64,000 bases of DNA, from NCBI RefSeq assembly GCF_026151205.1, contig NC_087083.1, positions 14,562,280 to 14,626,279 on the forward strand, read 5' to 3'. A model generated the notes under the pieces. It saw only the letters and a program-made list of their open reading frames with translations, was not told where the DNA came from and ran no database searches. Origin of the DNA: Bolinopsis microptera (lineage: Eukaryota; Ctenophora; Tentaculata; Lobata; Bolinopsidae). Shown piece after piece: positions 15,671 through 63,049 of this stretch; within the stretch, counting starts at the first letter, position 1, and each line of letters begins with the position of its first letter. A program made the translations under genes and the position numbers.

Positions 15671-18600
15671 AAAAAAAAAAAAAAAAAAAAAAAAAAAAAA
15701 AAAAAAAAAAAAAAAAAAAAAAAAAAAAAAAAAAAAAAAAAAAAAAAAAAAAAAAAAAAAAAAAAAAAAAAAAAAAAAAAAAAAAAAAAAAAAAAAAAAA
15801 AAAAAAAAAAAAAAAAAAAAAAAAAAAAAAAAAAAAAAAAAAAAAAAAAAAAAAAAAAAAAAAAAAAAAAAAAAAAAAAAAAAAAAAAAAAAAAAAAAAA
15901 AAAAAAAAAAAAAAAAAAAAAAAAAAAAAAAAAAAAAAAAAAAAAAAAAAAAAAACAGGATCGGACACAACTCGGGGAGCACGGACCACCTGATCGTCTT
16001 CATCCGGATCCTTTACATCAGAGAAGGAACTGAGAGTGTCAGCATCCTTGCCCTGCAAAGGATCAGACTCAGCGAAGTCAGTTTTATCCGTGCTGCTAGC
16101 TGGAGAACGTCCAGATGAAACTCCTGTGCCGGTCTCCGAAATGGCTGGAGGACTTGTGCTCTTTGTCGTGGTTGTTGATGACGATGATGATGGAGTGGGT
16201 TCTCGTATGACTGGAACCGAAGGAATCGCCTTATCACTGCTGGACGAACTTGAACTAGAAGTAGAATCGTCGGATGACGACGAAAAGGATGATGTGGTTG
16301 ACCAGGACGAGGATGATCTCGACAGGCCAGACAAACGTGTCGGTGACGTACTTGTACTTGCCTTATATCCATCACTCGGCTCACTAATGTCTCCATCGCC
16401 TAGCGACAGTGACTCCCTGTCCAAGGAAGTGGAGTCCCCTAGTGATTCAAGGTAATGGCTGATTCTGCCGACCGATGCGTGCCGGACACTCTTGCTGTCC
16501 AGCGAAATAGAGCTGGTGCTGTCACCTGGAGCAGGTGATTGAACGTGGTGACCTTCGTCGAGGTAGATCACCTCTTCTTCTGCATGTGCCGACCAACCAG
16601 ACAATGTCTTTATCGAACTTTCCGCAGGCTCGCCAATCTCGGTGAAAATGACAGGATCGGACACAACTCGGGGAGCACGGACCACCTGATCGTCTTCATC
16701 CGGATCCTTTACATCAGAGAAGGAACTGAGAGTGTCAGCATCCTTGCCCTGCAAAGGATCAGACTCAGCGAAGTCAGTTTTATCCGTGCTGCTAGCTGGA
16801 GAACGTCCAGATGAAACTCCTGTGCCGGTCTCCGAAATGGCTGGAGGACTTGTGCTCTTTGTCGTGGTTGTTGATGACGATGATGATGGAGTGGGTTCTC
16901 GTATGACTGGAACCGAAGGAATCGCCTTATCACTGCTGGACGAACTTGAACTAGAAGTAGAATCGTCGGATGACGACGAAAAGGATGATGTGGTTGACCA
17001 GGACGAGGATGATCTCGACAGGCCAGACAAACGTGTCGGTGACGTACTTGTACTTGCCTTATATCCATCACTCGGCTCACTAATGTCTCCATCGCCTAGC
17101 GACAGTGACTCCCTGTCCAAGGAAGTGGAGTCCCCTAGTGATTCAAGGTAATGGCTGATTCTGCCGACCGATGCGTGCCGGACACTCTTGCTGTCCAGCG
17201 AAATAGAGCTGGTGCTGTCACCTGGAGCAGGTGATTGAACGTGGTGACCTTCGTCGAGGTAGATCACCTCTTCTTCTGCATGTGCCGACCAACCAGACAA
17301 TGTCTTTATCGAACTTTCCGCAGGCTCGCCAATCTCGGTGAAAATGACAGGATCGGACACAACTCGGGGAGCACGGACCACCTGATCGTCTTCATCCGGA
17401 TCCTTTACATCAGAGAAGGAACTGAGAGTGTCAGCATCCTTGCCCTGCAAAGGATCAGACTCAGCGAAGTCAGTTTTATCCGTGCTGCTAGCTGGAGAAC
17501 GTCCAGATGAAACTCCTGTGCCGGTCTCCGAAATGGCTGGAGGACTTGTGCTCTTTGTCGTGGTTGTTGATGACGATGATGATGGAGTGGGTTCTCGTAT
17601 GACTGGAACCGAAGGAATCGCCTTATCACTGCTGGACGAACTTGAACTAGAAGTAGAATCGTCGGATGACGACGAAAAGGATGATGTGGTTGACCAGGAC
17701 GAGGATGATCTCGACAGGCCAGACAAACGTGTCGGTGACGTACTTGTACTTGCCTTATATCCATCACTCGGCTCACTAATGTCTCCATCGCCTAGCGACA
17801 GTGACTCCCTGTCCAAGGAAGTGGAGTCCCCTAGTGATTCAAGGTAATGGCTGATTCTGCCGACCGATGCGTGCCGGACACTCTTGCTGTCCAGCGAAAT
17901 AGAGCTGGTGCTGTCACCTGGAGCAGGTGATTGAACGTGGTGACCTTCGTCGAGGTAGATCACCTCTTCTTCTGCATGTGCCGACCAACCAGACAATGTC
18001 TTTATCGAACTTTCCGCAGGCTCGCCAATCTCGGTGAAAATGACAGGATCGGACACAACTCGGGGAGCACGGACCACCTGATCGTCTTCATCCGGATCCT
18101 TTACATCAGAGAAGGAACTGAGAGTGTCAGCATCCTTGCCCTGCAAAGGATCAGACTCAGCGAAGTCAGTTTTATCCGTGCTGCTAGCTGGAGAACGTCC
18201 AGATGAAACTCCTGTGCCGGTCTCCGAAATGGCTGGAGGACTTGTGCTCTTTGTCGTGGTTGTTGATGACGATGATGATGGAGTGGGTTCTCGTATGACT
18301 GGAACCGAAGGAATCGCCTTATCACTGCTGGACGAACTTGAACTAGAAGTAGAATCGTCGGATGACGACGAAAAGGATGATGTGGTTGACCAGGACGAGG
18401 ATGATCTCGACAGGCCAGACAAACGTGTCGGTGACGTACTTGTACTTGCCTTATATCCATCACTCGGCTCACTAATGTCTCCATCGCCTAGCGACAGTGA
18501 CTCCCTGTCCAAGGAAGTGGAGTCCCCTAGTGATTCAAGGTAATGGCTGATTCTGCCGACCGATGCGTGCCGGACACTCTTGCTGTCCAGCGAAATAGAG

Positions 18601-63049: not shown

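Follow-up and report, generated by a model that had tools for sequence, protein, structure and literature searches.

A 696-bp tandem array in Bolinopsis microptera as the probable main part of a giant exon in a RING-finger gene

The stretch analyzed here, denoted as the window, comprises 64,000 nucleotides of the Bolinopsis microptera genome (C12:14562280-14626279), and searches covered an assembly of 264,652,675 bp in 232 contigs. A ctenophore origin agrees with a glutamate receptor of the assembly, one of 32 matches to PF00060: among the 60 of 362 solved relatives listed for it, the best are the ML032222a receptor (E 3.5e-34) and 4zdm (E 1.1e-23), both ctenophore proteins, and the next stands at E 3.6e-14. 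Positions marked "window" count from the first nucleotide of this stretch, those marked "C12" refer to the chromosome. The window harbors part of a tandem array of 696-bp units that overshoots it on both sides and spans, with interruptions, C12:14547861-14705411. Comparison of the unit with the assembled sequence yields 203 alignments, corresponding to 189 unit equivalents. The period of 696 bp is reflected in a self-match of 0.976 at lag 696 (window 40001-62000), and the minus strand is open through the unit, which contains 0 stops and has a length that is a multiple of three. When the unit protein is searched against the genome, the matches listed of 169 all lie within the C12 array. Rfam models gave 0 matches in the window. 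An AT-rich palindrome, possibly the end of a mobile element, is located near the 3' edge of the array (C12:14547300-14547400), and a neighboring channel gene on the plus strand (C12:14538933-14540567) is assigned by PF00858 (E 1.7e-51) to the DEG/ENaC (ASC) family. The following features are found in the window:

window 11..10064, minus strand: noisy units, block N1; single-unit-pair alignments 79-91% identical, with mostly indels (5.1% substitutions, 10.3% deletions, 1.4% insertions)
window 11715..15198, minus strand: two stretches of noisy units by alignment (11715-13380, 14439-15198); the sequence separating them is unmatched
window 15951..20880, minus strand: clean units with 99-100% identity in the alignments; the run A x 285 (15671-15955) lies before them
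window 20881..28618, minus strand: noisy units (67-96%), interrupted by G x 212 at 26792-27003
window 30862..32949, no strand: homopolymer run C x 2088, a probable assembly artefact
window 32948..62769, minus strand: long clean block (clean3) of 42.8 units; 0.0% substitutions, 0.02% deletions, 0.04% insertions
window 40028..63049, minus strand: longest unbroken open frame, 7673 aa, with 33 copies of the motif EEEVIYLDE
window 53723..54418, minus strand: one consensus unit of 232 residues (PDEDDQVV...SSFSDVKD), the sequence used for folding
window 54269..54295, minus strand: SUMO-interaction-like motif EEEVIYLDE by pattern match, unit residues 42-50
window 54419..55111, minus strand: variant unit by alignment, 3 bases shorter in one of its serine runs
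window 62770..63169, minus strand: degraded unit (78%), then C x 392 at 63370-63761
window 63760..64000, minus strand: units resume by alignment and extend past the window end

A previous description of this DNA (the sequence-only reading) had proposed a giant acidic, Ser-rich protein of identical 232-residue repeats at window 15956..62934. Repeats occupy most of the window; noisy units also lie outside this span, and the array continues past both ends of the window. Between the clean blocks of the span, the units show about 67-97% identity and many single-base indels. The repeat array and its open minus strand proved real, the 3-bp length variant was recovered, and the continuous part, said to exceed 7600 residues, corresponds to the unbroken frame of 7673 aa. 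The acidic and Ser-rich character was likewise found, with 64 Ser and a net charge of -19 per unit, which is devoid of Cys, Met, and Asn. Identity of the units holds for a part of them: among 127 full-length units, 50 equal the consensus and 18 differ at 1-3 positions, but 59 differ at more (26 at least 97% identical, 23 at least 90%, 8 at least 80%, and 2 lower). Besides single-base indels, the changes in the 18 near-consensus units are D105E, S144S, K207I (its unit also has two indels), and one 3-bp deletion.

The open frame runs from the array into unique sequence at both edges, where the sequence-only reading had proposed to look for start and stop. For the 5' side, a minus-strand model of four exons was built (C12:14707098-14707030, 14706590-14706503, 14706216-14706070, and from 14705897), with phases 0, 1, and 1 and one open frame; its splice sites and start codon were picked by eye, exon 1 being the least certain. 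The encoded protein would begin with a short segment and an acidic region, followed by a C3HC4 RING finger, an Arg-/Ser-rich unique part, and the units. The RING finger reaches 21.8 bits with zf-C3HC4 in one construct (cut-off 21) and 19.4 bits in another, and its region has 4 matches in the genome, all in two 5' copies treated below and at no other place. On the 3' side, the frame exits the array at C12:14547861 and ends with a stop at 14547616-14547618. About 35 residues past this exit, GC drops from 0.40 to 0.23 close to a putative splice donor, thus a further 3' exon may follow; alternatively, the hydrophobic C-terminus could anchor the protein in a membrane. The C-terminal flank bears a weak resemblance to the unit (21 of 2000 shuffles score as high). 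For the unique N-terminal part, comparison with the unit did not show it to be a diverged copy, with 297 (local) and 344 (global) of 2000 shuffles scoring as high. Viral contigs yielded 42 pattern hits and no relative, and the RING/repeat gene is named in none of the literature matches listed.

Upstream, on the minus strand of C12:14708366-14746279, lies a gene of several exons that encodes Ig domains together with D8C domains of the uromodulin type (PF23283). It was considered whether the RING exon forms the 3' end of this gene. The D8C-Ig gene ends with ...SDVIVQLEEEEEEEESGLVM and a stop (14708488-14708366) upstream of the RING exon, so the two are separate genes. A D8C-Ig copy on C9, which shows no introns in the examined part, ends with ...SDVIVQLEEEEEESLVM and a stop. 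This intronless copy (C9:5209503-5212991), with an open frame of 3268 aa and 87% identity over the Ig part, is probably a retrocopy that is still open. Several introns of the C12 gene hold minisatellites seemingly seeded from exon edges (e.g. 14717366-14718163), and the plus strand of the same region contains a frame of 1118 aa (C12:14721959-14725312), the start of which looks LINE-endonuclease-like by eye.

Several lines of evidence bear on coding capacity. A stop-free frame among the six occurs in 24 of 20,000 dinucleotide shuffles of the unit. Serine accounts for 64 of 232 codons (45 TCN and 19 AGY), a content reached by none of 8000 shuffles (maximum 51). In the longest serine run, TCN and AGY codons alternate, which argues against a product of simple-repeat slippage. 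The two copies of the 5' flank differ, over their first 3.3 kb, by 32 substitutions in 2549 non-coding bases and by 8 in 790 exon bases. Read from the codons, the latter comprise 5 synonymous, 2 non-synonymous, and 1 unclear change: one synonymous and a K to R in exon 1, none in exon 2, three synonymous in exon 3, and one synonymous, an S to N, and an unclear one beside an indel in the unique part of exon 4. Two more substitutions (C12:14705383 and 14705379), situated at the array start near indels, were left out of this count. Given a neutral non-synonymous share of 0.764, the probability of so few such changes is 0.010 (2/7) or 0.021 (3/8). The second copy also shows 5 single-base indel columns in the exons and two stops on read-through, which are taken as unpolished sequence. 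By its synonymous codon usage, the open frame (z 1.8) does not stand out, since two of the five other frames reach 2.8 and 3.05. The frame shared at both edges and the in-phase RING exon point to one enormous coding exon instead of a satellite, and the array probably codes for protein. The giant coding protein of the sequence-only reading thus gains from the frame exits, the RING exon, the serine content, and, more tentatively, the mostly synonymous substitutions, but not from codon usage. With a probability of roughly 0.6, the array would form the main part of a single giant coding exon in a minus-strand RING-finger gene.

The sequence-only reading recognized no known family in the repeat, and none is matched above cut-off: the only Pfam match of the unit, AAA_34 with 15 bits, lies below the cut-off of 27. 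AlphaFold2, run on the single sequence of one unit, returned a mean pLDDT of 43.7 with no residue at or above 70; the repeat tail therefore looks disordered, although such a model is a weak indicator without an alignment. The charge-hydropathy value of 0.429 falls just on the disordered side of the line at 0.443.

Each unit contains EEEVIYLDE once, with 100 exact copies in the array. According to an excerpt of PMC12751080, a SUMO-interaction motif (SIM) consists of a four-residue hydrophobic core with acidic neighbors. It is conceivable, though rather doubtful, that the predicted tail binds SUMO multivalently via one such motif per unit. Given much better odds, not far from even, is a coding tail devoid of any SUMO role, in which the motif arose by chance and the disordered tail is either tolerated or acts as a filler, phosphorylated or structural. 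A looser motif pattern is present in 961 of 20,000 shuffled units, and each unit offers 8 CK2-type S/T-x-x-D/E sites. Also, an FTEI stretch fits the LIR (autophagy) core, which illustrates how readily motifs appear. The acid-flanked VIYL core, on the other hand, is rarer (18 of 20,000 shuffles, for a strict pattern written after the motif had been seen) and resides in the same gene as a RING finger.

The nearest solved relatives of the RING finger are RNF4 (4ap4, E 1.1e-6; 2xeu, 5.7e-4), followed by TRIM23 (3.2e-3). In the reverse search, the RNF4 RING finds 29 better matches in the genome, the best at C1:10703627 (E 2.9e-10), and the array gene ranks only 30th of the 40 listed (E 0.18). The gene is thus not RNF4, which also weakens a SUMO role. 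In RNF4, a SUMO-targeted ubiquitin ligase, roles are played by an HPIYI tail at the C-terminus and by a basic residue that directly follows the final zinc Cys; the array gene reads C-D-K-W-N-E-E-G after this Cys and possesses no HPIYI tail. At C1:10703627-10703788, a likely genuine RNF4 relative of this genome ends with HPLYI. The likeness of the array gene to RNF4 lies in the best solved RING match, whereas its SIM-like motifs follow the RING finger and do not precede it; RNF4 carries four SIMs, as given in the excerpt of PMC12751080.

The closest plan is that of the SUMO-dependent E3 ligase TOPORS, for which the excerpt of PMC11183266 describes a RING finger towards the N-terminus, an unstructured C-terminal tail, and five canonical SIMs plus one putative. 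The array gene would share the N-terminal-side RING finger, the disordered C-terminal tail, and the presence of several candidate SIMs. It departs from TOPORS in having one motif in each of many identical units in place of five canonical motifs and one putative. Mucins, sericin, and silk proteins are secreted, and a single large exon holds their homogenized in-frame units, many of them rich in Ser. This arrangement is shared by the array gene; its repeats, however, follow a RING finger, and its unit is long and lacks Cys, Met, and Asn. Titin is composed of folded domains encoded by many exons, in contrast to the identical disordered units of a single exon seen here. The likeness to titin, called the largest protein in an excerpt of PMC12198301, concerns the size class and depends on about 150 units being real.

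The length of the array has to be judged together with the quality of the assembly. Homopolymer runs (A285, G212, C2088, C392, G1079, G401+T241, and C1065) and a stretch of 2500 N, either a gap or withheld sequence, occur within it. One noisy block shows 18.6% deletions and 0.07% substitutions, which is not the pattern of decay; homopolymer compression, tried as the cause of the deletion-only block, gave a 75% match only. The noisy blocks and homopolymer runs are probably assembly faults. The excerpt of PMC10232365 names wtdbg, TGS-GapCloser, and pilon with Illumina reads for the published B. microptera assembly. Noise would be expected where gaps were filled from raw reads, and units would emerge from polishing over-homogenized, so neither the frame breaks nor the perfect unit identity are reliable at face value. 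Due to the noisy units, G x 212, and C x 2088, the frame is not continuous as assembled. The sequence-only reading had considered that the interrupted blocks might belong to one frame, in which case the protein would exceed 20,000 residues; the open frame does exit both edges of the array. In the pooled noisy units, the commonest substitution is seen in 20 of 88 cases, and one change reaches up to 5/8 within single noisy blocks, so that real unit heterogeneity is possible.

A segment inside the array (C12:14665705-14676173) repeats the right flank (14705412-14716708); among the alignments listed, identity amounts to 93-97% in the longest pieces and is lower within minisatellites. Past the flank, this second 5' copy jumps to mid-unit. 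This suggests a second haplotype joined in, the alternative being a true duplication. If haplotypes are present, the block sums attribute approximately 150 unit equivalents to the larger array and approximately 38 to the other; 150 x 232 gives about 34,800 residues. On balance unlikely, but deserving weight, is a genuine coding exon in which a variable-number repeat of modest size, with tens of units per allele, became too long during assembly because haplotypes were joined, gaps filled, and repeats misplaced. This alternative would account for the homopolymer runs, the 2500-N stretch, the noisy blocks, and the second flank copy, and suits the likely assembly method (PMC10232365, in excerpt). 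Against it, the unpolished-looking stretches still hold runs of units (approximately 16 in block N1 and 26 in block N5). Moreover, long perfect repeats are more often collapsed than expanded in assemblies. The array gene is probably very large, its exact length being unproven.

A satellite that does not code for protein and is open in one frame by chance, beside or within a gene, would fit the near-identical units of the long array and the undistinctive codon usage, but is very improbable in view of the open frame common to unique sequence at both ends, the in-phase RING exon, the serine content that no shuffle reached, and the single locus among the matches listed.

On the preferred reading of a giant coding exon, a 696-bp in-frame unit would have been multiplied by unequal exchange or conversion, yielding a disordered, acidic, serine-rich tail of thousands, possibly approximately 35,000, residues. 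Each unit may offer one SUMO-interaction-like motif, and the tail might bring the RING finger to multi- or poly-SUMOylated assemblies in a manner reminiscent of TOPORS and RNF4. In its boldest form, the reading describes a titin-sized protein mostly from one exon, an N-terminal RING finger with approximately 150 near-identical disordered poly-SIM units that serves SUMO-rich assemblies as a scaffold or as a ubiquitin ligase, its units being kept uniform by continual unequal exchange; this combination as a whole is improbable.

Should the length hold, a single exon with one repeated disordered unit gives this early-branching animal a protein of the titin size class, and the question arises how transcription and translation of such a gene proceed and how its uniformity is maintained. 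Should the motif reading hold as well, no natural SUMO reader would, to our knowledge, come close to this protein in multivalency. The cautious reading, too, leaves a coding exon, one that is likely fragmented in present assemblies and annotation.
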